Shown here: piece by piece, positions 4,446-29,891 of the stretch
Layout of the letters: each line of letters begins with the position of its first letter
Numbering within the stretch: the stretch's first letter is position 1
Source: Taiwanofungus camphoratus
Lineage: Eukaryota > Basidiomycota > Agaricomycetes > Polyporales > Taiwanofungaceae
DNA length: 64,000 nt
Direction of reading: 5' to 3'
NCBI GenBank assembly: GCA_003999685.1
Contig: CP021223.1
Coordinates: 248,001 to 312,000, forward strand
Position numbers and translations under genes: made by a program
Notes under the pieces: model-generated
Seen by the model: only the letters and a program-made list of their open reading frames with translations
Database searches by the model: none
Told to the model about the DNA's origin: nothing

Positions 4446-5514
4446 TTAAAAATTCGACGGAAACGACCTTAACACCTCATCATCAATGGGATCTCGGGCT
4501 TGGGGTGGAATGTTCTGGAGGTATTCAAGCGGTGCTAGTTGACGAGCGTAAGGTGCTGGCGTGTTAAAACCCGCAGCTCCTGGGAACGGTAAGGGTAAAC
4601 TGCCGACAGCGATCGACTGAGTCGACGGAGGGACGTCGAGACCACGGGATGACGAGGACGATGTTGTATCGGAGCTACGTCTTTCGGCCGATGGGCGAGC
4701 AAGAATACGAGACATTCTGCGGGCGGTGTTTGTCCGTGCACAGACGTACAATCCTGCCGGGACTTGAATAGACTTGAGCTGTGGTATCTGATCAACGGTG
4801 TTCAGCTGGTCAAGCGTGTCTTGCGTATAATAAGCATCTGTGTTCGAAATGATATACGAGTTTCAGGCTTGGTAGATGGGATGCTTACTGATGTGCCACT
4901 TGCGCGAATTTTTAGGACTGTCCACGAAAACCGAGTAAGTCTGCTTGATCAGTTGTGACAGCCTGCGTGATAACAAATGAATTAGTATTCTTTGCAAGGT
5001 CGAGATCCCCATTCCTTCGCAAGGTAGGGTGTAGTATTGCATGGCATAAGAATCACCCTGTGACGCTATTCCTTTGTATGAGGGACGATCGACCTGTGCT
5101 TTCTTTCTCATAATACAGCAGGAAGTCCTATGATAATTAAATCAGCGCTAGGAGACTTCGCGAACTAGACGCAATGCAAGACGAACAACGTGCTCCATAT
5201 GGCACGGCCCTCACGGACAATAAATGGGAGAAAACGGATAATAAATGGAAGAGAAAAGAGCTCACATCCCGAGCCCGCGAGGGACCCCAACTTCGCCCCT
5301 CGGTAAAACGCTGTATTTCTTGCCCGGAGGCCTCCAACGGACTGCTACTCCGCTCTTCCCACACGTAGACGCAGCCTGAAGTTAATGCCATTCGTTCTTC
5401 GTCATCCAAGCGGCGAAGGACCATAGGCAAACGGCGGAGGGCAACTGCGTGCAGGATAATTTCGGCATCGCGAACATCGCGAACACGCATGCGAGTACAG
5501 GTCGGTGATTGCAT
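4446..5514 (-). CDS. WOPR-domain (Gti1/Pac2) regulator A
   Basis: Predicted DNA-binding transcription regulator of the Wor1/Ryp1/Gti1/Pac2 family. The model is complement(join(4446..4837,4889..4962,5057..5127,5266..5514)), giving 261 residues with all phases matching. The WOPR first half is in exon 1 (start MQSPTCTRMRV, then VYVWEE and RFTEGRSWGPSR). The second half is split: DFLLYYEKE, then KQTYSVFVDSP and RKWHI, then AYYTQDTLDQL and PAGLYVCARTN. The start was chosen because genes B and C begin the same way (MQxPT). At first sight the locus looks broken, because no long frame spans it, but with its three introns it reads intact. Its C-terminal tail (APLEYLQNIPPQARDPIDD) is shared with B and C. 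In ascomycetes the family controls morphological switching and pathogenicity; the role here is unknown. Confidence 0.85.
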
Positions 5515-5787
5515 GGCTATGTTCACTTCTGGGGCGGGATGACAAGAAGCTGTCGTGGAGACGCCTGAGCTGACATCCTTTTAGTATTCCCAACTACTAG
5601 GCAGGACATAATTTTGGCACCCAGCCTGTTTGCTTTCGAGATGATACATCTGATTAAGTTTGAGAACATCTTGGGGCTAAACCGTCCAAAGCGTTCTCGC
5701 AACGTCAGGGATGAATTAGACCTGTAGGGTCCAGGTCCTAAGAATCATTAGATAACGCAAGTCAAAGGTTGTTGTTCTGGATGATCT

Positions 5788-5797
5788 AAACTTTATC
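5788..5797 (-). promoter_or_regulatory. GATAAAGTTT element upstream of WOPR gene A
   Basis: On the gene strand the site reads GATAAAGTTT and lies 274 bases upstream of the gene A start codon, next to a palindromic ACGTAC (5805-5810). It matches 8 of 9 positions of the Candida Wor1 consensus TTAAAGTTT. The same 10-mer lies upstream of gene C. A regulatory role is inference. Confidence 0.35.
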
Positions 5798-7582
5798 TTG
5801 GTACACGTACGGTTCTATTTTATAAATATTTGATTCTTGACAATTCCCGGTTCCCCGCTTTTTTTAATAATTTGTCAAGCGACTTCGGCGAAGGAGCTAG
5901 AGCATATGTATCCGCGTGAGTCGGCGGTTGATGGATCTGCGATTAAAGCAGGATTGATAAAGCAGATGAATATTGAGGGCCGCTTTCCGATATCAGGTTG
6001 CCTTACGTTCACAGCGATTATGTGCCATGTTCTTTGTCCGTCCCGCCGATGAATTGTTGTATTCAGATTAAGCGCCTTCGTGGACCAGATGAACGCCAGC
6101 CGAGACACGGCCGACATGTACCTTTTACTTCCGCAGTTTCGCTGGTACGATCGGTAAATTACATTACGCGGGTTACTATAAGCCTGAGGGCCTTACGTCA
6201 AACTTACCACAAGGTCAATACAAGACGAAACAAGACAAGCATGAACACCGTGAGCTAGGGGAGCTTTGAAGTTGTTCATCTCTTGCTTTCAACTTGATAC
6301 GTGACTCAGGACGCTCGACTTATGTTCTCACAAGTGATCTTCAGACAATGTTCTTCGCACTAAAGAAAGGAAGAGCATTCACTGATACACCTCCTGGGAA
6401 ACGGGCGACCTTCGGGAGTTGCTGTTGGGTGAAATGTAGCCTCTTGACCCCTTTGTATATAACGCGTTCCCCGGTGCTCGTTCAAACTGCAAGGCGTGTA
6501 CCAATCGTTCCTTTCGCACCACCTGCATACTGCATCCTTTCGAAGTCAACCTCAGACTGATTTATAGCTTCTTGGTTGGTATCCTTGTCAAAGCCTTTCT
6601 TGATGATGTTATAGCTGTAACTCGAGCATTATAGTCACGATACATCTTTTGTCCGGTTCGCCAGCTAACTCATGCACCATCGTGGCAGAATACCGGAGAA
6701 TCCTGACTAGATTTTCTGCTGTTTCGAGAAGACGTCAGCAACGGGTTCGGTGTCGCTGTTCCAACACGCAATGGCTATCTTGAGCCCTCGTGAGTGCTCT
6801 CTTTGAGCTCATACAAGTAACGTAGGAATTAAAGTGACATTGAACTGGATTGTCTCATATTCTAGGTCTTTTGGCAAGCTACCGGCGCGATCTGGACTTC
6901 GACAGCGAGGATTAAGCATCCCGAGTTACATGATGATTTTGATTCGCAGTTTAATCGACCGCACAAAGCTCATTGGCCGCAGCCGTCCTGCAGTCGAACC
7001 CTTAACCCTCTGGTCAGTTGTTGCCCAATGCTATCGATGTAGAGCCAGTTCTTCTTCAACTTGAATCCTGACTTAGGTTGGGTTTACTTAAAGTAATGTC
7101 CGCCTCATCGCTGGTGGACTATGTTTCGCGTCCTCTGGACCCTTCTCCTCTGATATCTAACACGCCAGCCAGTAACTGCAATATCATTGGCTTGTTCGAT
7201 CGATTGCTCTAAGCCGGCGAGGACAATTGGTGTGCATTGTATACTCCCCTCCTAGCAGTTTTCACTGAGCCTTGCCTCGGACCTCATGACCGATGTTTCC
7301 TCTGAATATAATATTGTTTCTCATCGTTCTTCACGACACTGTCAGCATTTAGTGTTATATATGTTCTCAACCACACCTGTATTTGACCACAGTGTGCATT
7401 CCTGGAGGGGCGCCTAACTGACGGCCCAGCCCCACAACGCAATATATCGCTGCATTGCCTTTCCAGACTTCTCTGTCTTATACTCAATTCTAAGAAGTCC
7501 TCACTGGTTTGGGAGTGTAAGCAGACCTGTGAGCCTTCCAGCTTTTCCTTCAGTGGCGACTGATAACGAGTGTATTTCATCC
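5798..7582. other. No gene recognised
   Basis: Some short frames read like protein (for example about 5880-5990 on the plus strand), but I found no consistent exon chain or family motif. This is probably intergenic sequence or decayed genes. Confidence 0.35.
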
Positions 7583-7948
7583 TCAATCCACCAAAGGTAG
7601 CCGAGAGTGTTCGCATCTGTGGACTTGAACAGTCGCACCAGTTTCATTAAGTTCTCCAAGAAATTTTTCGTAGATCCGTGCATTCCGGCGAGTCTTGTTA
7701 GTCGATATCATGGACGGTTCCTTGAGACGTTCGACTCGGCTAGGTTTCCTGTGAACATTTCCTATAACACCCCCAAAGGAAAACTGCGTCTCGGTATGGC
7801 TTGTATATATCTTCAATCTCTGTGTGTTAATCATGTCAGGAAACTCATGATATCTCGCTGCGATCTCTTGAAGAAGTAGTCGGGGTCTTTCCTTTGCAAT
7901 GTTATCGGCACCCGTCCCGAACCATGGTTTCCACGACCCCGATATCTC
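7583..7948 (-). other. Coding-like stretch, unrecognised
   Basis: The minus strand stays open for 122 codons after a plausible acceptor (CTAAG) at 7949. The composition is convincingly protein-like (for example PWFGTGADNIAKERPRLLLQ and TQFSFGGVIGNVHRKPS). A second frame over 7640-7500 also reads like protein (LGYLWWIEDEI), which suggests an intron or a decayed gene. I cannot name the family or define the ends of the gene. Confidence 0.3.
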
Positions 7949-10073
7949 TTAGGCAAATCACGCACGCCATACAATGCCGTAGAAACATCCGCCGAACATT
8001 CCATGATAGATGTCATGAAAGATAGCTGCTATGTAAGACTGATAAGCTCCAGCCGTTATGAGCACTTACTTTATATTGCAGCGTAGAAATTGAGTTTGTG
8101 GCGATTCTGCACCAACAGCATACGAACCATATGGATGACTCGCAGCTTGTAACTTCCTTCAATCTTATGCCCTGTGACAGTTCCGCGACCAGTTTGAGTG
8201 TCCTTTCTTCCCCCTTGGACTGCTGTATGAGATTATCCTTATCACCGCTTCGATTTACGGAATTTGATCATTCACGGTGGACATGTTCTGGCACGGGTCA
8301 ACAGGAAGACAACAGGTCCTTTTCAAATTGTGGCCACAGCTTCAAGCGATATCCTCTCCTGTACTGCATGCTCCCCGATCTCTACCTGAATGCAGCCTTG
8401 GTTGATCTATTCGACGGATGTGCTACAAGAAAACATCGTTTCAGGCAAGTGACTCGCGCTGATGAGTGTCACCGGGCTATAGTTGACCCGCCGAGAACCT
8501 TGATGAAGTGTTAGGTCGATCTTCCGAGCCTTTACCTCCTACCTGGCTCCCCGAAGCGTGGTACGGACCTGGTGACGTTTGCCGATTGGCTTTTCCAAGG
8601 GCAACTGGTGAGAGCTCCTGGTCAGAATTGCTCTGATTCGTAATACCCCTCATTGATCAATAGTTTTTGGAGAGGGAGTCGTCCTTCTCACCTGAGATTG
8701 CGAAAGCTCTCGCGTCGGAGCTCATTGCTTCTATCTTTCCACCGTTGCACTCCTCTTCAACGGTAACAGAGCCGTATGAATTATATCCGTTTTAGAGTCT
8801 GTTCGTGATAATCTCTTTGCACTGACCCTTAGACCCTTAACACCACCCTCATGCGTCCCGCATGGACGGGATTCTGCCATCACTTCCTCAACTGGAATTC
8901 TTGGCGGTGCCTAATCGTACAATTTACCTCCTCTCATCGACCCGTCAGGACTTCATCGTGACGATGACTCCGTGGCCTTATATGGGTAAGAAAACTGATT
9001 TCAATGGCTCGAAGCAAGATTAGTGTACTTGCCGCGAATGGGCACTCGACTCAAGTGCCTGGGAAAGATGCTACTAAAGTGCGTTCATTTCCGATTATTA
9101 TTTGGTGACGAATGTCGTTTTCATTTGTGAAGTCTCCTGACACCCGGAACATATTGAAGACACGGCCTGCTGAGCCTGACCCCCTTGCTTATTATATCGG
9201 GATCCATCATGACGTTATCCTGCGTTGCGTCTTGATGCGAGCTGTGAGCTTTCGTGTATTCATATAGGAGTCCCAAAATTAGGTCCTGCATTTCGTGCCT
9301 GACCCGTGGATGTTGGATTTGCAAGGAACACTCGATACATCACCAAAAGCTCGCCAACCTGCACAGGAGGATGGTTTATCCCCAAGATATTCTGAACAAT
9401 GTTTGATCTTGTCTCACCAGTCTGGCTAGATCGACACAGATAATGTCCATTATGCTTCCGCTCCAGATGTACACATACGTCATGTGTAAACTGCCTGTCG
9501 TTGCTGAGGTCTTGAGGCCTTGTTGTTTCCCATCATTTCGAAGCAGACCTCGGCGCCAATCCTCGTGTTCCATATCTGGCATTCCTTTCCCCTCAATACA
9601 TAGGAAATATCATTGAGTAGCAAGTAGTGAGAGTAGGTGAGTGCACCACTGACCGTCTATCGTCGCTCAAACGCTAACAGCTGACTGTTCACAGGTACGC
9701 ACCATTGCTTATCATCACGATACGACCGACCTCTCACGGAGGTTCAGACCAACTCTTAACTGACAAGCTTCTTGAATTCTCACATGGGATGTTCAATCTT
9801 TAATATATACGAGAGCGAACAGCGAGACATTGTGGAGCCGTTCCGAAACATCCAGGTAGACATGGACATGTCAGTCAGCTGCAAACAACGTGTGACGCTT
9901 CCATACATGTCTCCAAAAAAAGGACTTTTAGCTCGTAGGGATTTGGGTATTCATAACACTCTGGCTTCTGCGATCACGGCTATACGACCGCTCTTGCTGA
10001 TAGGTTTTGTCACCATCAGTAGGCGTAATACATTCATAAGTTTATCTCTATAATGTTCCCGTGGAAGCGACTA
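7949..10073. other. Mostly no gene; possible F-box-type remnant near 8.2 kb
   Basis: Near 8190-8270 the plus strand reads FFPLGLLYEIILITASIY, which resembles the N-terminal LPxELLYEI segment of basidiomycete F-box-like proteins. The frame does not continue cleanly. Plus-strand 8655-8795 and minus-strand 9121-9582 also contain protein-like text without a family match. I treat these as remnants at most. Confidence 0.25.
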
Positions 10074-10910
10074 TCAGAAGCCTTTGTTGTGGCCACCTGT
10101 CTCATAGAACACCTCCATTCTTGTCACGATAGTGTCAAGACCTGCAAGCCACTTGTTGAGTTCTTCACTGAGCCTCTCACTCGGGACGGAAGGACCACCG
10201 GCGGGGTCGGATGCTAATTTTGCGTAGAAATCCGCACGGTAGGGACACGCCTGCATCGCAACCTTGAATCAAGACAAACAATGTCAAAACTGTGTGGATC
10301 ACCCTAGTGATGATGCTCGACGCACCGCAAAGACTCCCTTAACAATGAAATTGTGGAATCTCTTCAAGGTCCCATCGTAGGCCTTGGTGAACGCAACAGA
10401 TAACTCTTCTGCTTGACTTGCCTGAGCATTCTGTAGTCCTTTGCAAGTGAACGAGAGACCACGAAGCAGCCACATAAGGCCTTCCGTCGCCGTCCGCTTC
10501 TTCTCACCCTTCTCGTTCTCTACTAGTTGCTCAAGAGTAGCAGATTTGGTCGGTGCGGCATCGTATCGAGCACGAGTTTTCTAAACGCCACAATGTTAGC
10601 TAGGTACAAACTTGCTCGTTGAATGGACTCACAGCAATGTTACCCTTGAGGTCGCTCTGCACGGCAGCGAATGCAGCAGAGCCGAGTATATCTACCCATC
10701 TTCAGACGTCTGATAAAAAGGGGGTTGGTATTCTGAGAAGCATACCAAAGAGACCGACCACGCCTTCCGCGGCCTTCAGAAACTCGAGAGTATTAACGCC
10801 AGCGTCGGTTACGGTCACATCTGCAAACGACTAAGTTGTGCATGAACTACTTTACCACAGACGTGGAATTAAGACTTCCAAACCTTGACAGTCTCCAAAT
10901 AAGGTGCCAT
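10074..10910 (-). CDS. Glycolipid transfer protein (GLTP fold)
   Basis: Cytosolic carrier that moves glycolipids between membranes. The model is complement(join(10074..10262,10326..10580,10633..10691,10746..10830,10884..10910)), 204 residues, the usual length of a single-domain GLTP. The residues that hold the sugar headgroup in human GLTP are all present: Asp51, Asn55 and Lys58 in SDLKGNIAK, Trp94 in GLMWLLRGL and His133 in RFHNFIVKG. The first intron was placed by restoring the family start MAPYLETVK-SFADV. The gene is transcribed away from the methionine sulfoxide reductase gene, with 244 bases between the two start codons. It appears intact. Confidence 0.92.
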
Positions 10911-11154
10911 TTTGTCCTCGCGAGATGGCTAAGTCAATTATGGAAGAATAAACGACTGTATTTGTGAAAGGGCTAATACTTGCGCGGTCGGCACTGGGTC
11001 GTGCAGCCACCGCGAGCGCTGAAGCGACGAACTATGGACTTATCTAATCTTGCGATCAATTGACGCTCGAAGCCCTCGAAGGAGAAAAGCAGTCCTCGAT
11101 GGCCTTTACGCCCTGAATTTCACTGGATAATTCCCAAGTTGTAGTGAAGCAGGA

Positions 11155-11936
11155 ATGCCTCACGCTGATTCTGCTCTAATACCGCCCGCACTCGACAGAA
11201 CCGAATTTTGGACATATGTCCATGACCAGCTCGCAGGATTGTTGGAAGACCAGCGGAATTGGGTATGAAATTCTGTTACATACACCACGCGGTCAACGCT
11301 CTGAGACGACTTTCCCTTTCTTGCGATGCTCAGGTCACCAACCTCGCGAATACATCCTCGCTGATCTACAGCTCTCTCTTGGCATACCATCCTCATTTCG
11401 GCCAGGGCGATAGGGCGGTTAACTGGTGTGGTAAGTACCTTGTCTACAGTTCAGCTCGGGCCATATTGGCCAGTCATCGTTGGCCAGTTTGTCAAATCGA
11501 CGCTGAGTGCGTCCTCTCAGGTTTCTATCTCGAGTCTACTCTATTCCCCGTTCCGCGAATATCTCAGATTCGAAGGGAAACCACCCGGGACGAGTCTCCC
11601 AAATCTAGCAAATTGCTGCTAGGTCCGTTCTGCGGCAAGCCTGCTTGCCAATTCATCAATGTGACTCCGGGCAGAGCTCGCGGAGTTTGCGCCGATGCGT
11701 ATTTTCAGCGAAAGACTTTACTAGTGCCGGATGTGGTGGCTTATCCTGGTCATATTGCGTGTGATGGCGACACTAAAAGTGAGATCGTATGCCCCTTGAT
11801 TTTAAGAGGGCGGGGCGAAGAGAAAGTTGTGGGAGTACTCGATCTCGATTGCCTTGCATTAGACGGATTCACCGAGGAGGATCGAAGGGGTTTGGAAAAG
11901 ATCGCTGATCTGGTTGTTAATGCATGCGACTGGTAA
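11155..11936 (+). CDS. Free methionine-(R)-sulfoxide reductase (GAF domain)
   Basis: Reduces free methionine-(R)-sulfoxide back to methionine, an oxidative repair and salvage step in the cytosol. The model is join(11155..11262,11334..11430,11521..11936), with phases agreeing. The single GAF domain carries the conserved cysteines of the family in GKPACQFI, RGVCADA and PGHIACDG; the last corresponds to the catalytic cysteine and the other two to resolving positions. The start MPHADS precedes the family segment LLEDQRNWVTNLAN directly. A stretch after GFYLES is somewhat longer and more basic than I expect but stays in frame. The gene converges with cysteinyl-tRNA synthetase, with 152 bases between stop codons. 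Confidence 0.92.
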
Positions 11937-12088
11937 CAGACCCCAGACTAACACATGTAGCATTAATTCCTCCCTATCATAATTTACATGTACCACATCT
12001 GCACGACAGCGCTTCTAATACGTTCGATGGGCGACCCAGGCACTGTAGCGTCTAGAAGGTCGCATACTGTGTTGCATCGGACAACGTT

Positions 12089-15000
12089 TCATTTCTGATC
12101 AGTTGTCTGCCATTCCAAGAATTCTTCGTGTAACGTTTTCTGCGAGGTCCATTCCCTCTGGACCTTTTTCCCATGATTCTTACTCAGCTCTTTACCCTCA
12201 CTGTCAGTGAGCGGCAGCCCGTTTTCATCCCAACTTGTATATGTCCCCTCTAGCACATGAGGGGGTTTGAACATATCCTGCGGTGCTGTGCGGCCCCTTT
12301 CAAGTTTCTGCTGTCGTTTTTGACGTTTAGCCTCAATCTCTGCGGCTTTTTTTGCAGCCTTTGCCTCTGCTATTGCGCGCTTTTCGTCACGAGCTTTGAT
12401 CAGACTTGCAGGAGAGACGAGCTTGACCAAAGCTTTGCCATCTAGGAACAGGACGGATTACGCCCGGAACATATTACGAACCGATGAATTGTCCCAGAGT
12501 CGTTTGCTCACCGTCTTGATCATCCAAGGCTACGCCTAGTGGTACCAAATCGACGTCCCGGAGTTTGTCTGATAGTGACAAAATATCCCCCAGAGCTCCG
12601 TCACCTTTTTCGATGGCAAGTTTTCGCACACCATCACGGAATGAAGATAGCGTTCGGAGATAAGGCATGAGAATCTCTTCTCGCTGTAACGATCTCATCA
12701 GTCACCGAAGTCTAAATGACACAGCTGGCCAACGTGGTCAGCACGTACGTTCACACTGCCTTCTCCCGCATTTTGTTCCTGACCCCAACCGATCTCCGAG
12801 GTCTCTCCCTCCCCCAAACCAAACATACGAAGCATTTGACCCACCCAGCGTGCTATTCTTTCCACGACGCTGATGTCCAGATCCTTGCTACGGATATTGA
12901 TATAAACATTCGTTCGCGATACTAGCTCGCGCAGGACATTGAGTGCCTCGGGCGTGTTGAATGAATCACAAAGGGTGACACGAAATGCATCTTGACTCTG
13001 GTGAAAGCTTGTCGACGCGAGATAAATTTAAGTGTAGCATGAATTAGGAATTTGAACTTACCTATCGGTTAGCTCGCGCTCCGCATCACGATATCGATTT
13101 GTGCCATCTAACCGAGGACCCTCCGCTTGTGCTTGGCTGACAAGGGCTTTGACTGTAGTGAAAAAGTTCTGCAAACGTCAGATTAGCATGATCGTGTTGT
13201 TCATATAAGCAGGCAAGTGTAATGGTTCATTTACATTGAAAGTCGCCTCAAGGTTCCGCACTTCGCCCGTCATAAGTGACTCCGAGAAGTCAACTTTTGC
13301 ATTCCAAAGCTGCGTTAAGAAAGCAAGGCGCAATTGTCGGGGGGTATACTTCCGGAGTATCTCCTAACAAGTGGAAAACCGAAGTCAGAAGAGAACAGCA
13401 CAGAAGGAAACAAGCTGACATCGATGGTAATAAAATTTTTCAGAGACTTGCTCATCTTGAGCCCTTCAATGTGCAAGTGTCCGGTGTGAATGAAGTAATT
13501 CACCCAAGCCTGGCAGTCATGGTAAGCCTGGCAGGACGTTGATTAGTCTCATTCCTTCATAATCACTGCCTCTGCTTACTTCTGACTGAGCCATCTCGTT
13601 GTCGTGATGTGGGAACGCCAGATCTATACCTCCCGAATGAATATCCATGCTGTCACCAAAGATTGCAGACGCCATTACGGAGCACTCAATGTGCCAACCT
13701 GGGCGTCCCGGACCCCACGGTGAGGGCCAAGACGGCTCTCCGGGCTTCGATGCCTTCCACAATGCGAAGTCGGCTGCTGACCGACGTCCTGTCGCGGCAG
13801 ATAATGCCCCTAATGATAATAGTGTGAGCTGTGCATGAACAGCCATTCCTATTTCCGAATAACCTACCTTCACCCTCTTCTAGTAGCTCTCTGTTTCCCT
13901 TGCTCCAGGGTTCCAGCTTAGCATAGTCGTGCCTGTCTGCTTTGTCAAATGCTCGAGTATCGAAGTACACGCTCCCATCAACGGCATATCCGTATCCGTT
14001 CTGCACGATCCGCTCCACGAATGACACGATTTCTGGCACGTACTCTGTCACACGAGTGAGAGTATCCGGGTCGCGTACGCGCAGCCGATGCATATCTCTG
14101 AAAAACTCTTTCTCCCAGTAGGCAGACAAGGAACGAAAGATCGAGTGATCGGTCACAGTGCTACCATGCTGTGTAAAGTGGACATGAGAGATTTGTAAAA
14201 GAATATCAACAGGCTTACTTGTTTATCCAACGAAATGGCGAGGATGTCTTTAGATTCGTCTATCAATGCGTGCGCAACTCCTTGCCCCGTTTCACCGGTG
14301 TTCAGTAACCGCTCCGCAACACCCAACGCATTGTATGTACGATTCTGAGTTCAACGCATGAGTCTATGGGTGAATACATATTGGTGCAGACATACCGCGG
14401 CAGAATAATGCATCTCAAACTTCTCATCTCTCCTCAAACATTCTTGTTTCCATGCCATGTCCTGGAAACACTCTACCAGGTGTGGCCAAACTTCTTTTTG
14501 CTCTCCTTTATTTGAGCGTTCCGCTTCGGGCAAGCCCTTGCCGACTTTGGTTGCTACATAGTCAACCCATGCTGTCTGCACCTGTTCGACGAGCTCCGGC
14601 GACAAGGCTGCTGTCTCTGAACGGAACTTATCTACCAGATACGTTTGTCGCGCGCGAAGTATAATCTGTCAAAGATGGAAAGTTAGCTGATTGCCGTAGA
14701 TCACATATTGGAACATATACTTTGTCATCGATGTCGGTGATATTTATCACAAAGTGGACATCATAGCCAAAGTAATCCGTCATGATTCGCCGCAGGACAT
14801 CCTGAGTCACGTAGTTTCTAGACATAGTCGAGATCATACCACTGAGCTGCAAACTAAAACACTCACCTTGCATGCCCCATGTGCGATGAGTCGTATACCG
14901 TAGGTCCGCAATTGTACCACTTAACATGCCGCCCGTTGCTTGCAACAAATTCAGTCTGCAGCGCACAGTTTCAGCTCGAGGACTGACTGTGTAAGATGGA

Positions 15001-15107
15001 GTCTAACCGGAACGAACTTTAGTTCGTGTAAGTGAGTTGTAGACTTTCAGGACAGGTTCCTCGGCTTTCCTAGTTGGAAGAGTCCACGGAGGTTGCTGGA
15101 CAGCCAT
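12089..15107 (-). CDS. Cysteinyl-tRNA synthetase
   Basis: Class I aminoacyl-tRNA synthetase that charges tRNA-Cys. I trace 13 exons: 15107-15018, 14955-14867, 14817-14721, 14665-14396, 14344-14219, 14168-13868, 13809-13580, 13527-13420, 13363-13235, 13168-13062, 13007-12755, 12683-12512 and 12441-12089, about 774 residues. Visible signatures are [18 protein letters not shown] (zinc cysteine and the HIGH-like HMGH), the zinc-site segment [10 protein letters not shown], and [11 protein letters not shown] (KMSKS). The C-terminal tail is rich in Lys, Ala and Glu and coiled-coil-like, as in eukaryotic forms. The frame stays open upstream of Met 15105-15107 to another ATG at 15210-15212, adding 35 residues rich in Arg, Leu and Ser with few acidic residues, a likely mitochondrial presequence. 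The donor of exon 11 could be 12755 or 12749. Confidence 0.93.
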
Positions 15108-15212
15108 GGAAGAGCAGTTAGCCACGCGTAGCGAAAGCGGAACAAAGCGATGTCTTTGAAGAGGACGACGAAGGGGATTGAACAATAATGAGATGCTGCA
15201 CAGCATCCACAC

Positions 15213-15934
15213 CTATCTGTAGCGGATGACTCGAAACCTTGACTGGAAGGCCGCCTCGGTACAAAGCGCACGGTCACGCAACTTTCGCCCGCGTGAGCTA
15301 AACTCACGCGTCCTAGCAAGGAAGATACTTATCCACCTACAATCATATATATCTCGAGATTGAAATTCGATAAGAGACATCAGGGCATTTATATAGAAAG
15401 AATTGATGTTATTGCGCTGGCACATACTTAGTGATATTATCTCAAAGCCTGTATATTTTGTAGGATATTGAGAAACGGCTGTTATATGTAGTAATATCCA
15501 AGACCAAAATTGAATATTGATTGCGCAGCGAACGAATCCGGTGTAGGAGGCCAGGAATATTATAAACACTGACAGGGTACGACTCTTGTGCGACAACGGT
15601 GGCTACTCTTACCGCACGCAAATCATATCTGAAACTAGCAGAATTACAAAGGTATAGCGCTAGTAGCAATAGCTGGCATATGACGTGCAAGCTGGAGTAA
15701 TGTCCGGGCCAGCATGTATATCATGTAGGACTGACAGAGATTATTCTCGCCTCACCTTGTCATGGAGACTGCCCGCAGAGAACCTGTTGTTGCTATAGTT
15801 GTTACCGGACTGATTCAGATTGTCTACGAACAAATCGTCGTTGATGGCATGGCTAGCGGCCATTGTTGCAGGCGCCCTCGTCGCCTTCGATATGCTAGCG
15901 TCGGAGCTAGTTGTAGCAAGCGTTTGAACAACCG
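15213..15934. other. Intergenic
   Basis: AT-richer sequence between the synthetase and the next minus-strand coding-like region. It presumably contains the synthetase promoter; no other feature is visible. Confidence 0.4.
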
Positions 15935-18060
15935 TCATGAATACAGACTGGTTGGCTGCGAGCCTTCTTCCCACTCGCGGAAGATGCGGACGACCTCGGG
16001 ATGGACAGGAACTGAATGTACTTGAATGTATAGCGGGCTCAGGACCTTATTCTTCACGCTCGTGCATCCCCGTAAGGTGTAAATGTTCTACACTGTCGAA
16101 GCTTATTAGACTATCTGCTTAAAATAGGGTGATGTTACGTACGGAAGGGGGCGTCTAGCTGGACGTCGAATGAGGGAAATGCGCCAGAAGACGCATCTTC
16201 CAATTGAACCTAAGAATGCCGCCGAGACGTCAGTGTCATATGCTACGTATCATTGATGTAAATGGCACAGCGTACCGTTCAAACACGTTACGACGTACCC
16301 TAGAGAGTTTCCCCCACATCAGACGCAGCAAGGGCTACTGCTACCAGCCAATTTTAACGGTCACGCTGATCTCGGTACATCATGGAGGCAGTAGCTTTGC
16401 GAATACATCACTCCTTCATTAGATCCGTAGACTGTGTCGGCATCATTCTCGGGTACAACAATCCAAGGCTCGGTTGCCACTACCTTCGCAATGCTCTTGT
16501 CTAAGGGTGCATTGTAAACGAAGGATGTCATTGAAGATGGCTTTGTCATTTGCTGAAATGCTATCGATGCGGAATGCATTCCTGGAAGTAGGGAAATCTG
16601 AGACTGATAAATTGATCTTGGTGAAAACCTAGGATGCCAGCAAGCTCAAGCTGTGCGGCGGCAAGAACTGAGGCAAGGTCGATGGTCTCTCCAAATATCA
16701 AGAACCCGCCAAAGCCAAAACTCTCGCAGAACTCTATCCGGAAGAGACAACAGAGCCTAGCAAATGACTTAGCAGATTTTTCTGCGCGTCTGAAAGGGTC
16801 CAGCACCCAATGGGCCGTACTCTAGACCAGATTCAACGGAGTCGGTGGTGTGTCCTAACCCGAGTCAATCATAAGCGCTGCTCTAGCAGTCCGTAGAGCG
16901 CCCACTGATACCATTGATATCAAACCTGGAAACAAGGAAAGCCATGTGCGACTACAGTGAGTGAACATGTGGTACAAAGAACGCACGGAAGGTCTAGTTC
17001 TGTAAGCCTACTCCCGCGATTGCCACGTCGCCTGGAGAATCGGTCTTAGGGTGCAAATTTTCACGACGATACAATAAGTTTTGGATACGAATTCAAGCAT
17101 ATCAGAGATGGGAGCGAGAAACCGAAATCGATGGAGTCAGTTTTACCGGTTCGGAGACGCTGCGTGTGACTCACAAATCGGCCCTACATGTTCTCCATAA
17201 GTCCTAGCAGCTCAAGAAAATAAGCGTTGACAGACAGACTTATGCTTTTGAGTCCAGTATTATTGCCTATTTCGCCTCGCGACTGAATTTCGAGGAAGAA
17301 CTCTGTCTGATTGGCGTTTGTGGACACGATCTGATTTGTAAAGGCAGTGACATCGCGCCCTCAGATCTGGGGTAGTATGTAAGATGAAAGAAGTGATACC
17401 TGGGACTGGGAACGAGGAACTAAGAAAGTATGAGGGCACTCAGCCGCGTGACCTGATCATGATGAAGTCCATGTTGGAAATTATGGGAGACGAGGTGATT
17501 CGACATTCATTTTCCTGACCACAAGTGGCGGCTGCTCCCTCCTCGCCCACTGGCTCATGTAGCTGAGACTAGAATTTAAATCACAAACATGATGCATGAT
17601 GGCTGCGAATGAATTCAGCAATCACGGCGACTCCGCCTAGGCCGGTGCCTGTCTTCAAAACATTGCTAACCCCGTATATGGTAATTTCCAACACCGATTG
17701 TTATTACGATCGTGGTGATCGCACATGGAATTCACGTGGCCATGGACGTATTAGGTAAGTCACCAACGACTGTAACTTACTGAGCTTCTGTCGTGTCAAA
17801 GCAAATGCACCTCGAAATACGGGGCGACTGCAGGACCGTCTTTTGGGCCTGGAATACCCTGACATCCACGACAACATGGCGGTCGTAATTACCAGTATAA
17901 AAATTTAGCTTACCTACCGAACCCTCACCGACCAAAGTCAACCGGCGGTACTTGATGCAGACTTCTCAATTCTGACATATGGGCGCTGGTGCTAGTGGGA
18001 CTTCGCAATCAAGATTAAGTCAAGGATTAATACATGGACGGGGCTCGTAGCATTTTGAAG
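15935..18060 (-). CDS. Unrecognised multi-exon gene or remnant
   Basis: Many minus-strand pieces read like one protein, in order: 18.0-17.8 kb (RRLTLVGEGSVGKLNFYTGN), 17.7-17.6 kb (SNVLKTGTGLGGVAVIAEF), 17.36-17.19 kb (QTEFFLEIQSRGEIGNN), 17.08-17.0 kb (KTDSPGDVAIAGVG), 16.85-16.8 kb (LEYGPLGAGPFQT), 16.73-16.63 kb (GETIDLASVLAAAQLELAG) joined by a GT-AG intron to 16.58-16.4 kb, then 16.22-16.16 kb, and a terminal stretch ending at 15,935 (VHPEVVRIFREWEEG, stop). I could not join every exon, assign a start or name the family. It may be a secreted or enzymatic protein; some joins may have decayed. Confidence 0.35.
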
Positions 18061-19138
18061 TATCCACTGACATTGCCGAATACAGACGCCCACTTCTAGG
18101 CTTAATCAACAGAGGACATATTCTGGGAATGGTCCTGTAATGGTTCGAAATCTAGTATTCGTCGCAAAGATACGGAGGCAATTGTCCGCGAAAGGGACCG
18201 TCTTTGTCTTCGCAACAATCTGAACGGAACTGTCAAGGTGCAAATCTGATGAGCGCGATACCTGCTTCTCCACGAGTCTTTGAAATGCTAGTCCCTTCTC
18301 TGATTGCCATCCTAGTTCCACAGAGCCCCGAAGGAAGCGCAGGCTGCGCCGCGTCACGTACCCCGTTACAGGTTTATCTGGGCATATTCCTTACTCGCCA
18401 CGTCCAATCGCGCTGGGGGGGTTGGCATATTCGAGTTCGTGCGTGGGCAGTCAGCAGGCAACTCAGAAGTAGTTACGATCCGGGTACTCGCGACGAACAG
18501 AGAGGATTCCATGCTTCGTTGATAAACCAGTCACTCCGCAGTGATTGATTGCATCCCATCAGAACATGCAAATGCACCAGGCCGGCGCAGAATGTTCCCT
18601 GTAGAGTGGATTCACTTGGATCTCGCGATGCCATGCGAACGTGAGCGGCTTACATGTACTAATTGACAAGGCTGGGCGCAACGAAGGCGTGCATAATTGC
18701 TTTAGTGCTGTGGGGCGTCGGGGTTGTTGTCGGGAACGCGGATCAATCAATAACCGCAACTCCGAGAAGCCTTAGGCACGACGTCGAGCTTCATGAAGAA
18801 GATCAACGATGGTGTCTAACCTCACTGGTGGTAGCTCTGAACAGCGTTCTCGTCACTCGGACTGTCTGGCTACTGGCTATTTCAGCTGGAATTCGCACGA
18901 AGCGGTATGGAACTGCACGTTGACGACTAATTCGTTGACTGTATTGCTGCATTGAATCTTGAGAAGCGGTATGCGTGCCGACGAAGCTACATACAGACAC
19001 CCCGGAACTGCGATAGGCGGACGTCCACAATCAGACATTCAGTTCACCGTTAGGAGTCCCTTGCGAATTGCGATATCACAATATTAGTGGTTCTCATTGG
19101 TCCATTACTGTCTTTTACCGTCCGAGTGCCAGGAACAT
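18061..19138. other. Intergenic, nothing recognised
   Basis: No coherent exon chain is visible. The 3' part is presumably the promoter of WOPR gene B. Confidence 0.4.
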
Positions 19139-19148
19139 GATAAACTTC
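19139..19148 (+). promoter_or_regulatory. GATAAACTTC element upstream of WOPR gene B
   Basis: A diverged version (8 of 10) of the GATAAAGTTT site found upstream of genes A and C, 270 bases before the gene B start. A GTACGT palindrome follows at 19168-19173. The function is inferred only from shared position and sequence. Confidence 0.25.
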
Positions 19149-19417
19149 TCTTCTTCATACCTGTGCCGTACGTTTGCCGCGGGTTCTACGATCAAATACT
19201 GCCACTAGCTTGCATGCGATTAGGGTGGCATTTCTCTATAAGGTAAAGATCACGTTCTGACTGTCTGTAGGAGCATCAACTGTGCCCTGCAGCACGCCGG
19301 TTCAACTGCCTTCTTCGCCCTGCCTCATTTCCCAGCCACCCACTCCTTATAATCCGTTGGAAGACCGCACTGTCGTCTGTATTTACATGTCTCCCAGAGT
19401 CCGTGTGCAGGGTCACG

Positions 19418-20594
19418 ATGCAGCAGCCGACGTTCACTGGCATTCACATTAGGACGGTTGCGGATGCGCACGTCATCTTCCACGCCGTCACTTTCGGTCT
19501 ACTTCACATGGTCTCTAGACGGCTCGGTCCTGAAGAGAGACAGTTCATCCAGTCGGGCTCGGTTTTCATCTGGGAGGAACGGCCTCCTCTTGCGGAGGCT
19601 AATGGCGTACGTACACGATTTGACGATGTCCCCGCACGTGGATCTGATCTGGTGCTTCTTCGCCTGTTGTTGGACAGGCTGGAATAACTCGGTGGACTGA
19701 CGGCAGGCGCTGGGGCCCTTCCAGAGTTCGCGACGTGAGCGTGCTTTTTCTCGCAGCAGGAGCTTGAGCCTGACCGCGTCGGCAGGAATTTCTTTTCTAT
19801 CAGGAGAAACTCCCGGAGTTTGAGGCAGACGCTGAGACGACATCTCTTATGTATGTGTCCTCTTCTGTGATAGAATCCAGCCACACTGTGTAGCTTGTTG
19901 CTGATCGAGTCTGGACCTTGTGCAATTCCCCCCGGCATACCTTGATGCGGCAGCCTCGGCAGCCGCTTAGTGAAGCAAACGTACTCTGCGTTTGTCAACA
20001 CACCCCATGGCCGGCGGAAGTGGCACCTAGGTCAGCTGCCTGTCTATTCCTTTCAAGCTTTAGGCTCACCTTGAGGACCGCGCGCGACCTGCAGTGGCAT
20101 ATTTCACCCGAGAGACGCTGGGGGCTCTCCTGACCATCGACCATATTCCAGGGCTAGCCGCCCTTCGGGATGACATCCGAGAAGGCCAGTATTTGACAGC
20201 ACGAACGTCAAAGGCGCGCACCCGCAACGAGCATGCAGGCGAGGAACAGGATAGCGGCAGCGCCGAATTCTCACAGCGTCCGCGCTATTCACCCAGCCCG
20301 TCGCCTCCTGCCCCTCGCGGGGACGGGACCCCGCACACTCCTGGCTGCCCCGAGACGGCAGTCCCTGATTTCACGTCTGCTCCTTTTGCAGGCCCGGTCG
20401 GGGGGACAGACGCCGCCGAGTCCGCGGCCCGTCTCCCCGACCCGCACCAAGCACAGTCGCTGGCGCTGCGCGAGCGGACTGCTTCCCAAGACCTGGCGCC
20501 TCTTGTCTATCTTCGGATGCACCCCTACCCGCCTCGCCACCCGATCGACAGCGTTGCGCTGCGATCACTTGATTGCAGCATGAGGATATTCTGA
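19418..20594 (+). CDS. WOPR-domain (Gti1/Pac2) regulator B
   Basis: Second predicted Wor1/Pac2-family transcription regulator. The model is join(19418..19606,19678..19734,19786..19850,19954..20030,20095..20594), 295 residues with phases in agreement. WOPR pieces in order: MQQPTFTGIHIR and VFIWEERPPL; RWTDGRRWGPSRVRD; EFLFYQEKLPEFEA; VKQTYSAFVNTPHGRRKWHL; AYFTRETLGALLTIDHIPG and YLTARTSKA. One extra intron (19607-19677) splits the first WOPR half compared with A and C. The tail ends APLVYLRMHPYPPRHPIDS, the motif shared with A and C. The region between domain and tail is rich in Pro and Ser and probably disordered. The gene lies on the same strand as gene C, 2.5 kb upstream of it. Confidence 0.85.
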
Positions 20595-22798
20595 GCGGTC
20601 GCGTGCCCTTGATGTCTATTAGGCTATCGCAGAGCTGTGTACGATTCTATCTCTCCCCGCTCCCACTGTATACGTATACCCCGTTTCCGTGCCGCTTATG
20701 GATAGGTGCTACTTATTCGCAAGGAACGTGCTCCATGACCACGGCGTCGTGTGAGGAGATCGCTTCTGAAAGGGTCTCAATGGTGGCGCTCTGTGGGGTG
20801 CATATGTCATATATTGCCAGATTCCGCTAGCAGCTGGGCCGTCGTTCTCGCCCTGATATCGATGGCATCGCGAAGGGTCCTGCAAGACGTCTTCCTCTGT
20901 CTGAATCATGCACGCCAGCCCAGGCTGCGCCCTAACGCCATTCTCGCGAGCAGCTTCCTCTCCCTCGGATCTACACTCGATGCGTGACATAAGCTTCTCT
21001 GCGGTCCAGGTGCGTCGGTGCGTTTATTCATGGCCCGCGTTCCTATTACAGCACAGAGTGGCCGTGTGGCGAGGACGCTGCGAGGATTCGCGTCCACGTC
21101 AAGAAGGCGGGCAGCACGCGCCAAGCCAGCCATGGCAGGGCGCGGGTGCCCCCGTCCGGCCCTCCGCGCCATTCCTGGCGCACGCCTGGCACCTGGCATC
21201 CGGCCGCGGTGCGCGCACAGGTACCCGCCGAGCCGCTTCCCACTCCACTCTTCGATGCCACGCAGACGCAGACGCGGATGCAGAGCGGGGTGGGGGGGGG
21301 GAACTCGTGAATTGAGCTGAGCACGCCTGGCCGGCCGTCCGTGTGTGGTCGCTCCCAGGCCCTGGCACGCTGGGCACCTGACTGGCGTGATAATACAAAG
21401 CGCACGCATGACTTGGGGTCTGAGTTGCTGGGGTGGAATTCGCTCTTTCGGGACTGCATGGACTGAAGGAGGATGGTGCGGGCCCTGATGGACGCGGCCT
21501 AGACGTCTGTTGCTCAGCGGCGCTGGGTGGGTGGGCCATGCCGTTGTCCAGTGTCCAGTGTGACCGATCGCAGCTGGGATCATGATAGTTGGTATATGAA
21601 GGCAGCCCGCGGCGTGATCAGTCCCTTCATGAAATCAGATCAGAATCTGGGGACGCTAGGCCCGCAGAGGGCTCTGAATCTGGCGTTATGTCCGTGCGAC
21701 AGTCAGCACGGTGCGCGAGATTCGGGCACGCGTGGTGAAGCTGTTTCTTTTATAAGGAAAGTATCGGCATGCCGTGCCGCCGGACGCAATCGATAATGAG
21801 ATCGGGCGATATAAGAGCAAGCAGTAGTATGTATCACTATCTACGACCGAGACGCTATCGCGTGCCGTGCCTACCAGTGTGTGTTTCGTACCGCTCGGAT
21901 TTCCACCGTGCGTTAGACGAACAAGACACAAGACGCCTGGCCTGCGCTCGATATCAGGCAGCCGCGTATCGAAGGCGCCGTCTAGCGTCCACGTTTGCAG
22001 CGTGCCTATCCATCGATCCCGGGAATGGGGTTGAAACGGTGGTTTGAAAAACCGTCTCGCCAAGGGGGGGGGGACGTCGGAGGTCGGCTGGCGACACGTT
22101 TTCTGGTCGCGAGGGCGCATTCTGCGGGTTCTGCGACAGGCGTCAGAGGCGGGGGTCGGGCCCGCCAAGAGGGGGAGGCCGGGTATGTAATGGTGCGGTG
22201 ATGCAGGACGTACAAAGTGGGCAATAGCGTTCCGCCGACCTTTTTCCGCAGCTGGCGCGGCTGCTAGGCGTTGCCGCGAACACACGGCGCGCACCTGATT
22301 TGGGCACGCGAGCACCGGAGAGTAGCCGACGGTAAGTCGGGATGGTCGACAGACGGGTGCACGAGGCTGGGAGGGGGCGGCCAAAGGGGGATGGAGGGCG
22401 AAAGAGGGCTGGAACGAGATGCCCGGGGGGACGGCGCAGATGGCGTCATTGGGCATGCTGGTGTGATTTGATGCCGGCTTGGGGCACACACGCTGCCAGA
22501 CGGGCGAATCGATGATCAGCAGAAACATATCGGGGCACGTCGCACAAGTCGCCTGCTCCGTGTAAGTAGATATGTATATAATGTATCCGTCGATTCATGG
22601 GCCCTAGTCGGGCGCGTGTGCCGGCACGCCGTGAGCTTTTCCATTCGAGGCGCAATACAAAGGCCGGCGTCAGAGGGAGGCAGCTGATGGCAAACAGACC
22701 ACACGGAGGACTGACTGAATGGCGATGGGATGGACGGCGGGTGGCAGAGGCCCCGAGACTCCAGAGACTGGACATGGCAGGGACGATCAGACGTACGT
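20595..22798. other. Long GC-rich intergenic region upstream of WOPR gene C
   Basis: About 2.2 kb without a supported gene. Long open frames exist on both strands, but they overlap each other and have no family motif; they reflect the high GC content. Poly-G runs occur near 21292-21301 and 22064-22072. A long promoter would be in keeping with a heavily regulated transcription factor gene, but that is inference. Confidence 0.45.
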
Positions 22799-22808
22799 GA
22801 TAAAGTTT
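22799..22808 (+). promoter_or_regulatory. GATAAAGTTT element upstream of WOPR gene C
   Basis: The same 10-mer as upstream of gene A, here 296 bases before the start codon and directly after the palindrome GTACGT (22793-22798). It resembles the Wor1 consensus TTAAAGTTT at 8 of 9 positions. Confidence 0.35.
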
Positions 22809-22975
22809 CCTATTATGCGGGTTGTATCGAGATTAGATTGCTCAATGTATCCAGCCTCCCGGGTCGACCGAGAATGGTTAAACTTGCACGCTCCACTCAT
22901 GCCCCAGAATCGCCTCCGAGTCTCTCTCTCTCATCAAATCCCAGAAGCTCAGTCCGCCCGCGCATCGCTATATAA

Positions 22976-23100
22976 CACCCTTCTCGCCCCTCCTCCCGTC
23001 CACTTCCCCCTTTCCGGGCACCTCCAGCCTGCGTTCCCCCCTCTCTCCCCCCCTCCCCCCCTCCCCCCTTCACGCCCACGCCCCACGTTATCTCACGACC
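22976..23100 (+). promoter_or_regulatory. Pyrimidine-rich leader of WOPR gene C
   Basis: The 125 bases before the start codon are almost all C and T, with repeated CCCCCTC and CTCTC runs. CT-rich tracts of this kind mark transcription start regions of many filamentous fungal genes. The ATG follows in the context ACCACCATGC. Confidence 0.45.
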
Positions 23101-23103
23101 ACC

Positions 23104-24765
23104 ATGCAGATACCCACGCTCACCAACATCCACATCCGCTCCGCTGAAGATGCCCACAAGATCTTCTACGCCGTCCAGCTCGGCATCCTGCCCAAAATCG
23201 ACAAGCGCCTCGACGCCCACGAGCGCGCAGCCCTCCGCCCGGGCGACATCTACGTGTGGGAGAAGAAGGGCCCGTCCGCAGACGCCTTCAGTGTCAGCAT
23301 GGAGCGCTTCACAGAAGGCAAGTCGTGGACCGCGTCGAGGGTTCGCGAGGTGCGCCGCGTGGCATGCTGTGCATGCCGTACCGTGCTGACCCAGACGCCC
23401 CAGGACTTTCTCATGTACTTCGAGAACAAAAAGAAGCCCAAGGGCCGGGGCAGCGCCCAGCGCGCAAAGTGAGTTCCTCCGTGCCCACCAGGTGGTCGCT
23501 CGAACCCACGTCCTCCCCCCAGATCGTCCGAGAATCGCATCGTCCGCCCGGGCGAGCAGGACCAGTACATCAAGCTGACCTACTCTGTCTACCGCAACGA
23601 GCCCGGGGACGCCTCTGCCAGCAGCGACGACCCCGCACACGAGCCGCGCAAATGGCACCTCAGTAAGTCTGTCTCCCCCTCCCCTCTCATAGCCCCTCCG
23701 CGGTGCGCGCCCGCTCACGCGCCGCCGCGCAGACGCGTACTTCACGAAGCTCACCGAGGGCTCGCTGCGCACGATCGACGACATCCCGATGCTGCGCGAC
23801 CTCGTCGTGCCTGCGGGCACGTTCCGCAGCGCGCGCACGAGCAAGGCCGGCAAGAAGGGCGACGCGGGAAAGGCGCCCAGCGCGAGCGTGAAGCGCACCT
23901 TTGCGCCCTTCCCGTCCAACTACCGCGCGCACCCGCACCCGCACCCGCACCCGCACCCGCACGACCCGCAGCCGGGCCCTTCGACCCTGCCCGCGCCGCC
24001 GCCATCCGCGCTGGCGTTCGCCGCGCCAGAGCACGAGCCCGCGTCGTACGCGATGCTCGCGCACGCAGGCCTGCCTCTGCCCCCGCCGGTGAGTCGGTGC
24101 GCCCTCTCTGCGTCGGTCGCCCCTTATCTGCAGGCGCACCCCCGCAGCACGCCGCCCCCCGCGCCGCCCCTGCGCTTCCGCCCGTGGGCGCCGGCGCCGT
24201 ACTGATGCCCGACCCGGACGACAGCGCGCAGGGCGCCCCGCTCCCCGAGGAGATCGGCGCGTACACGCCCGCGCCGCTCGCCTTTGCGCACCCGCCTGCG
24301 GACGCGCCGCCGGGCCCGGGCTGCGAGTACGGCTCGTCGTCGCTCTCGTCGCTCGCGTCCGCGCTGTCCCCCCTCCGCCGCCGCCGCCGCCGCAGCAGCG
24401 CCTCCGCCTCGTCGCCCTCGCTCTCCGACCGCTCGCTCCCCTCGCGCATGTCGCTCCCCTCCCCGCTCAGCCCCGCGCTGTCCTCCGCGTCCTCCTCCTC
24501 CTCCTCCTTCTCCTCGTCCCCCTCCTCCTCGTCCGCGTCTGCGTCCGCGCGCTCGAGCTACTCCGCGTCGCCGCTGCTCGCCGAGTTCCCGCTCACGGAC
24601 GCAGGCACGCCGTACACGCCCGCGCCGGGGCCCGACCCCGGGCGACACCTGCTCGGCGCGGCGCGCGTCGACCTCGCCCCGCTGCGCGCGCTCCGCACGC
24701 ACCCCTACCGCCGGTGCCCCGCGGACGACCGCGCGCTCAGGATGCTCGGGCCCGGCGCGCGGTGA
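23104..24765 (+). CDS. WOPR-domain (Gti1/Pac2) regulator C
   Basis: Third predicted WOPR regulator and the longest. The model is join(23104..23349,23404..23468,23523..23662,23733..24088,24148..24765), 474 residues. WOPR signatures: MQIPTLTNIHIRS, YVWEKKGP, RFTEGKSWTASRVRE, DFLMYFENKK, KLTYSVYRNE, RKWHLNAYFTKLTEGSL and VPAGTFRSARTSK. A His-Pro repeat (about 23926-23960) follows the domain, then long Pro- and Ser-rich stretches, then the tail APLRALRTHPYRRCPADDRA shared with A and B. For the last intron I prefer donor CCG/GTGAGT and acceptor CCGCAG; a nearby alternative keeps frame too. Codon use is strongly GC-biased compared with A and B. Confidence 0.87.
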
Positions 24766-26166
24766 GCGGTGAGCGGTGAGCGCGCACTGTGGTGCTGTGG
24801 TGCTGTGGTGCGGTGGTGCTGTGGTGCGGCTGCGGTGGCGGGGGCGTCGTGCGCTGTGGTCGCGCGGGGCTGTGTCGCCGTGCGCGCGACGCTTCGTGTT
24901 TTTCCCCCTTCCCTTTTCCTCCCCTCCCCTTCCCTTCCCTCCCCGCCCGCGCAGCCCGTGCCTGCTGGGTCTTCCTGAACGCATCGTGCGCGGGCGGGCT
25001 CGAAGGTCTCGCCCGGTTCTCCCGCGTTCGGTTGGCGGGCAGGCAGGCGCGCGGGGCTGGGAGGCTGGGCGCAAGAGGTGTCGTGCGGGAGCGGACATGC
25101 GAACGTGCGGCGTGGGATGTTGCGGGACATGGTGTTGCGCTGCGGGCTCTGGGCAGTCTGGGCTCGCTGGTGTACACGCATACGCACTGCAAACTTGTTG
25201 CATGCGTTGCGGCACGCAGGGTCGGGCGCGGCGCACGTATTGTGTATATTGGCGTGTACGGTGTACAGTAACATAGCGTTGGCGGGGTCTCGGACATGTG
25301 TACTACTACTATTACTGCTATTACTGCCTCGGGCATACATACCACGCGCGTTTTCTCGTTCTGCGTCTGTGTGCGGCGACATGGTAGTGGGGTGGAGGCC
25401 GAGGCTGATGGGCCCGATGCGGCGGTAGCGCACGCTATTTTTGATACGGTTTAGGCTCGGGTGGGGCGACGAGCGTCCGCACCAGATCAGGGGCGAGCTT
25501 GCGCAGGTAGAGGGGCCGGCTGCGGGCCTGGCGCGAAAACAGCGCGTGAGCAGAGAATGGCAACTCTGTTCTCGGGGCGCTTTCTCGGGCATGATGGATT
25601 TCGAGAAGGGGGAGAGTGCGCCTGGCACGGATAGGACAGCGGCGGGGCGAGGGTGGCAGGGAAGGTGTCAGTGGGCAGAGGCAGGGAAGCGGGCGGACCC
25701 ACAAGGGACCTACAAGGACCCACGGAGGCGAGTGTGTGTCGAGTGGAGACAATATAGCCTGTTGCAGACACAGTCCGACGTCGCGGGCAGCGGCGAGTGG
25801 GCGCAAAAGGCATCCATGCCCCGCTCGGCACGCTCGGCTGCCGTGGAAAGACGACACCTGCCATATGCGGACAAATGGCCTTGTGCAATGTGTGGCGCGG
25901 GTGGCTGCTGCTGCCTGCTGCCTGCTGCCCGCTGCCCACTGCCCGCGACGTCGGCGCCCGTCAGACCCTGAGCCAGTCTCGATCGTCCATAGCGGCGACC
26001 ACACGCCCGCCTCCGTGCCCATCGGCTCCCGGCCTCACAAGAACCGCGCCATCTTGATCGTCCATCGCCAGGCGCACACTCACGGGCCCGGCCCTGTTTC
26101 TGTAACCATCCATCCACGGTAGCACACTGCCCCCGCTCAATTCCAGAACCCTCAATCGCACTCGCC
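24766..26166. other. GC-rich intergenic region
   Basis: No supported gene. It starts with three copies of a GTGAGCG-like unit just after the WOPR C stop and a GTGGTGCT repeat at about 24788-24838. The large frames on both strands are composition artefacts. The last few hundred bases are probably the promoter of the F-box-like gene. Confidence 0.45.
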
Positions 26167-27807: not shown

Positions 27808-28132
27808 TGGGGACAGAATCGGTTCATGCTCCAGCGTATTGTACATTGTATTTAGTAGCGCTCACACTCCCAACTACTACTCATCCCGCACGCGCGGTCG
27901 CCCGTGGATAACTCTACGTATGTATTTGTTTCGCGATGATAGATTACATGTGATATTCGTGCAGTAGACAGATAATGTGGACGGCAAATGAGATGCATTT
28001 TCTGAGCGAGGCAGTCGTGTGCCCCGCCAAACAACAACGTGGACATGCAAGAGATGTGACTTGATAATTGAAGAAGCGGGAGAAGCAGTCCGAGGGAGAA
28101 AGAACCCAACCTGGCTGGGAACACGCAACAGG

Positions 28133-29431: not shown

Positions 29432-29891
29432 GGCAGCTAAACGCTCTGCTCCCGGGACCGTCGACAACAACGAGCTCGATAGGGGCGGGGCGTGATGGAA
29501 GAGGAAGGTAAGGGAGATGCATTTATACAAGGTTGCGAATGCTGGAAGGGTTCGTACTCCGCCCAAAAGTCCGCTGATTGAGCACTTTCCCGCGCACGGA
29601 CCAGGCTGGTATGACGTAAGGACCGCTACGGGCGTGCAGATATCCACTGATGGATGGCACTAATGACCGTAGGGAACGCTCCTCATCTATCGCTCCTCAT
29701 TTTGCACGGTATAGCTGTGCGTGAGCAGAGTCCACACTGACGTCAAGGCATCTATCCAACGCTTAAAAGTTGCGGTACCAGGAGCAATTCAAGCTCTCCT
29801 AGTAACCCGCTCTCAATCCGACAATACCCAGTCCACAAGTAAGGTCTTCGAACAATGCTTGTATCGGCTGATAATGTTGCAACAGCATAGC

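Follow-up and report, generated by a model that had tools for sequence, protein, structure and literature searches.

In the Taiwanofungus camphoratus genome (33,194,378 bases in 15 contigs), three genes encoding proteins with the WOPR (Gti1/Pac2) domain lie together in the 64-kb stretch C4:248001-312000, hereafter the window, in whose coordinates positions are given unless a contig is named. We conclude with good confidence that these genes, A, B and C, are intact and paralogous, that they belong with three further genes (D-F) to a third WOPR subfamily of short proteins, that A, B, C and F (the ABCF set) come from old duplication, and that each of the three most likely encodes a nuclear, sequence-specific DNA-binding regulator. 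They are new members of a known family, and the expansion is a modest one. WOPR proteins are described in excerpts of PMC4917244 and PMC4567300 as binding DNA via two regions, WOPRa and WOPRb, and as controlling developmental transitions. They are developmental switches in ascomycetes and smuts, and the extra copies of mushrooms are little treated in the open-licence literature.

Three intact WOPR genes in the window

The splicing of A, B and C was done by hand at GT/AG sites, and the following models are predictions.

4446..5514, minus strand: WOPR gene A; exons 5266-5514, 5057-5127, 4889-4962 and 4446-4837; 261 amino acids (aa), 4 exons; PF09729 expectation value (E)=5.3e-21; loop core RFTEG
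19418..20594, plus strand: WOPR gene B; exons 19418-19606, 19678-19734, 19786-19850, 19954-20030 and 20095-20594; 295 aa, 5 exons; PF09729 E=1.1e-27; loop core RWTDG
23104..24765, plus strand: WOPR gene C; exons 23104-23349, 23404-23468, 23523-23662, 23733-24088 and 24148-24765; 474 aa, 5 exons; PF09729 E=2e-18; loop core RFTEG

All three predicted frames are open from ATG to stop and begin with a common MQxPT start. The initial annotation had proposed three intact WOPR genes at this place, with A apparently broken until its introns are placed, and the hand-spliced models confirm both points: the outer coordinates 4446 and 24765 match exactly, and spliced A is an open frame. The tail of C, which is long and of low complexity, needs a fourth intron (24089-24147), without which the frame stops at 24205. 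B and C stand in tandem, 2.5 kb apart, and A lies ~14 kb off in the opposite orientation. A tblastn scan of the rest of the window with A-F as queries (E<=0.5) turned up neither a fourth copy nor remnants.

The PF09729 scores of A, B and C (75.9, 97.6 and 67.5 bits, respectively) are all above the curated cut-off of 23.6. Their best stretches cover profile positions 6-85, 1-79 and 5-106 of 168, that is, only the first part of the profile, and the proposal that each gene carries a full WOPR domain therefore holds only with a caveat: WOPRa is above the Pfam cut-off, whereas the match ends before or at the edge of WOPRb, which is visible by alignment as a diverged RKWHxxAY block. The profile of A-E matched the solved WOPR structures 4m8b (YHR177W; E 2.6e-19) and 4qtj (Wor1; E 5.6e-18) over profile positions 11-140 and 4-138, respectively, reaching into the K-TYS...KWHL-AY part of WOPRb.

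A third WOPR type in an enlarged family

A Pfam search of the genome gave seven places, and searches with the A-E sequences added an eighth, F, which Pfam had missed; the resulting count of at least eight loci is a lower bound. Besides A, B and C, these are:

contig C12: WOPR gene D; 309 aa; start codon uncertain
contig C3: WOPR gene E; 255 aa
contig C10, matches 1085573-1086760, model 1085171-1086760: WOPR gene F; 429 aa
contig C14: G1, Gti1/Ros1-like (class by eye); 457 aa
contig C6: P2, Pac2-like (class by eye and by grouping with G1); domain read only

The at least eight loci thus comprise one Gti1/Ros1-like gene and one Pac2-like gene, with six others (A-F) belonging to a third, shorter type. 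Passages of PMC4917244 and PMC6243373 credit most fungal genomes with two WOPR genes, falling into two clades, and the initial annotation had likewise taken such genes to be few in number. This does not apply here, nor to Coprinus cinereus, for which an excerpt of PMC2762075 mentions more than two WOPR genes as 'data not shown'; that mushroom resembles the present case in its count. Under uniform placement, ~6e-5 triples such as three of eight loci within 20.3 kb of 33.19 Mb would be expected, and the clustering of A, B and C is not due to chance. Searches of open-licence papers, apart from supplements, brought up no report on WOPR gene clusters in mushrooms.

A tree of 9 rows and 176 columns, a small sample made up of A-F, G1, P2 and an ascomycete-like row, placed A-F on a branch apart from the other three with support of 100/99; the six genes thus group with neither the canonical Gti1 nor the Pac2 class. 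Within this branch, A, B, C and F formed a clade (98/99), with the grouping of A and C at 43/63. The proposed ABCF clade rests mainly on the tree. Identities in the WOPR box are 48% for A-B, 45% for A-C, 44% for B-C, 54% for B-F, 48% for A-F and 48% for C-F. With the Gti1/Ros1/Wor1-Ryp1-Sge1 class, A-F have in common a WOPRa with an RxTxG loop core, its N-terminal position and a variable tail, but they are short (255-474 aa), carry an RKWHxxAY-type WOPRb beyond the Pfam match and fall outside the G1/P2 branch. The box is common to the Pac2 class as well; yet A-C are only 26-30% identical in it to P2, the separate Pac2-like gene on contig C6.

Two weaker matches and one outside locus came up in these searches. 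C6:1639039-1639200 (E 0.096, three stops, tail only) stands outside the count of eight, and C3:1160856-1161092 (E 0.885) was rejected, being not WOPR by eye and matching 0 Pfam families at E<=1. No WOPR relatives were found in viral contigs. The genome-contig collection held one WOPR locus (L008 4959-6440), ascomycete-like by eye, on contig NYXK01000182.1, which is labelled a Deltaproteobacteria metagenome-assembled genome; this gene is probably fungal contamination.

Shared introns and a C-terminal motif

The three introns of A and its C-terminal motif have the following counterparts.

5128..5265, minus strand: A intron 1; phase 0, end of WOPRa; also present in B (19735-19785), C (23350-23403), E and F; missing from the D model
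4963..5056, minus strand: A intron 2; phase 2, linker; likewise an intron of phase 2 in the linker of B (19851-19953), C (23469-23522), D, E and F
4838..4888, minus strand: A intron 3; phase 1, splitting the KWHx/AY sequence of WOPRb; also present in B (20031-20094), C (23663-23732) and F; missing from both the D and the E model
4452..4547, minus strand: C-terminal motif of A, LAPLEYL...RDPIDDEVLRSF; equivalents in B (20481-20570), C (24658-24747) and F

The phase-2 linker intron lies 22-28 codons past the end of WOPRa in all six genes, in a linker that is itself unalignable; additional introns, peculiar to each gene, occur in B, C, D and F. The C-terminal motif has the consensus LAPLxYL...RxPIDxxxLRSF, and tblastn between the tails gave E ~8e-4 for A-F and E 0.03-0.04 for B-C; by eye, the terminus of D (TSEDRRALNSF) is loosely similar to it.

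Age of the duplications and regional base composition

Within A, B, C and F, the proportion of synonymous differences in the box (pS, Nei-Gojobori) is 0.65-0.82, at or near saturation, and the non-synonymous divergence (dN) is 0.46-0.56. Because synonymous sites are at or near saturation, the ABCF duplications are old; together with the 44-48% box identity among A, B and C, this argues that the set is no recent burst. In all four, non-synonymous change has been restrained compared with synonymous change.

Differences in guanine-plus-cytosine (GC) content among A, B and C had been attributed to divergence after duplication. The third positions have a GC content of 53, 64 and 92%, respectively, and the introns 44, 56 and 71%; the neighbouring non-coding DNA has 47% near A, 51-61% near B and 61-65% near C. 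Introns and flanks thus shift with the region, and because the differences are regional, they are no sign of gene-specific divergence. A GC-rich island at 20001-30000 (60-71% GC per 2 kb) lies within a window of 46-59% GC, and the WOPR genes, introns and spacers track it.

Origin of the cluster

Since A, B and C belong to one subfamily and have a common intron plan, local duplication is the simplest origin. The initial annotation had described a local family arisen in this way, which stands in part: the three are clustered paralogs of one subfamily (ABCF 98/99), but the clade also takes in F, on contig C10, an exclusive A+B+C clade was not recovered and the divergence is old. Several observations weigh against our conclusion. 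A+B+C without F appeared in only 5% of 200 bootstrap trees, the exclusive clade being neither recovered nor rejected (p-AU 0.286, approximately unbiased test), and for this reason the duplications around F may have happened in any of several orders. Two of the three shared intron features are not special to ABCF, only the phase-1 KWHx/AY intron being so, and the agreement of introns is somewhat favoured by the method, because the hand choice of sites was made in knowledge of the paralogs, which tilts it towards common positions; moreover, the donor of the second intron of A, GTGATT, is unusual. Finally, in the 10-kb stretches around D, E and F (3.7-4.8 kb either side), only the WOPR frames and their antisense frames match the window (frames >=60 aa, E<=1e-3). 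Because these surroundings share only WOPR with the window, the mechanism of duplication is not visible, and segmental duplication around D, E and F was rejected, there being no shared non-WOPR frame at E<=1e-3.

It is quite possible that the cluster is an ancestral mushroom arrangement, its genes being orthologous lines of old standing that have stayed linked in many Agaricomycetes, and no duplication particular to this lineage, as would fit the synonymous sites at or near saturation, the box identity of 44-48% and the more than two members that Coprinus already has in the excerpt cited above (PMC2762075). We regard as tentative the alternative that duplication in recent ancestry was followed by fast divergence: a tandem expansion specific to this lineage would explain the physical clustering and the single clade with its common intron plan, whereas the synonymous saturation and low identity speak against it, as does the dispersed gene F, which is nearer to B (54%) than A (48%) or C (44%) is. 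That one or more of the three genes is decaying and no longer functional seems highly improbable. A looked broken before splicing and has the unusual donor, and C carries its long, low-complexity tail; yet all three frames are open, invariant box residues, introns and the C-terminal motif have been kept across an old divergence, and dN is well below the synonymous divergence (dS). On the reading that we prefer, of intact paralogs, an old gene duplication would have founded the ABCF branch, with B and C remaining in tandem, A nearby and inverted, and F on another contig.

Recognition loop and predicted function

By analogy with the family, the products of A, B and C are most likely nuclear, sequence-specific DNA-binding regulators, in which WOPRa and WOPRb would fold together, the loop around the RWTDG/RFTEG core would enter the minor groove, and the variable tail, which carries the short C-terminal motif, may recruit partners. 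The WOPR loop is described as sitting in the minor groove in excerpts of PMC4917244, PMC4567300 and PMC2762075, and the motif KRWTD(S/G) as recognition loop and potential protein kinase A (PKA) site in a passage of PMC2762075. In our alignment, the loop core reads RWTDG in B, D, E and F, and RFTEG in A and C; relative to the published motif, R and T are kept in six of six genes (A-F), and K only in E. The RWTDG/RFTEG stretch is probably the minor-groove loop, a placement that draws in part on the papers cited. The change from RWTDG to RFTEG common to A and C is the best lead offered by the comparison, and altered DNA reading by these two proteins would be a guess. A linked set with a changed recognition loop makes a small, testable case of a regulator family diversifying its DNA reading and timing in fruiting-body fungi.

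A developmental-switch role for A, B and C would likewise follow the family, and the initial annotation had raised a division of stage-specific roles among them as a possibility. Among mushrooms, passages of PMC7567395 report developmental regulation of Gti1/Pac2 genes in six Agaricomycetes, one such gene ranking fourth among the primordium-upregulated genes of Flammulina filiformis. An excerpt of PMC8708209 lists a gti1/pac2 gene among the most regulated in Laccaria mycorrhiza, and one of PMC4082614 tabulates a pac2-related gene of Coprinopsis in conserved fruiting circuitry.

A more specific scenario, which we consider unlikely, is that ABCF constitutes a mushroom-type WOPR subfamily in which the loops of A and C were re-tuned to RFTEG and read another DNA site than B and F, yielding local regulators with split targets. 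The 9-mer ATAAAGTTT, one mismatch from the Wor1 core, occurs at 5788-5796 (minus) and 22800-22808 (plus), 282 and 304 nucleotides (nt) upstream of the starts of A and C, respectively, on the gene strand. Within 1 kb upstream, none was found for B, D, E, F or P2, and one for G1. The enrichment of ATAAAGTTT, in a test framed after the sites at A and C had been seen, was not significant (2 vs 0.61 expected for ABCF, 13% of shuffles; 3 vs 1.39 for all eight, 16%), and the Wor1 core TTAAAGTTT with <=1 mismatch was not enriched in the window either (7 matches vs 6.4 expected). Sites ~280-300 nt upstream of A and C would be in keeping with self- or cross-regulation under the split-target scenario; the motif search for autoregulation was not significant.

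Neighbouring genes

Selected frames only were scanned for neighbours, and the 14 kb separating A from B may hold additional genes.

11226..11936, plus strand: GAF-domain frame between A and B; Pfam GAF_2 E 5.7e-7; neighbour outside the WOPR family
12089..15002 (extent from frames), minus strand: cysteinyl-tRNA synthetase-like gene, also between A and B; several frames match tRNA-synt_1e and DALR_2; likewise a neighbour only
25993-27807: large frame beyond C; weak F-box match below cut-off
28443-29243, minus strand: TFIIA alpha/beta gene beyond C

The window frame 7601-7876 (plus) weakly matches a frame near P2 on contig C6 (L055 9199-9627; 31% over 77 aa, E 1.9e-4). Farther along the window, a beta-mannosidase-like gene is present as an inverted duplicate, at 35895-39887 and 56931-60785, ~17-20 kb apart, with both copies matching Mannosidase_ig. 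The two copies are 87% identical over 4061 aligned columns; in one core of 1234 nt the identity rises to 99%, suggestive of a gene-conversion tract.

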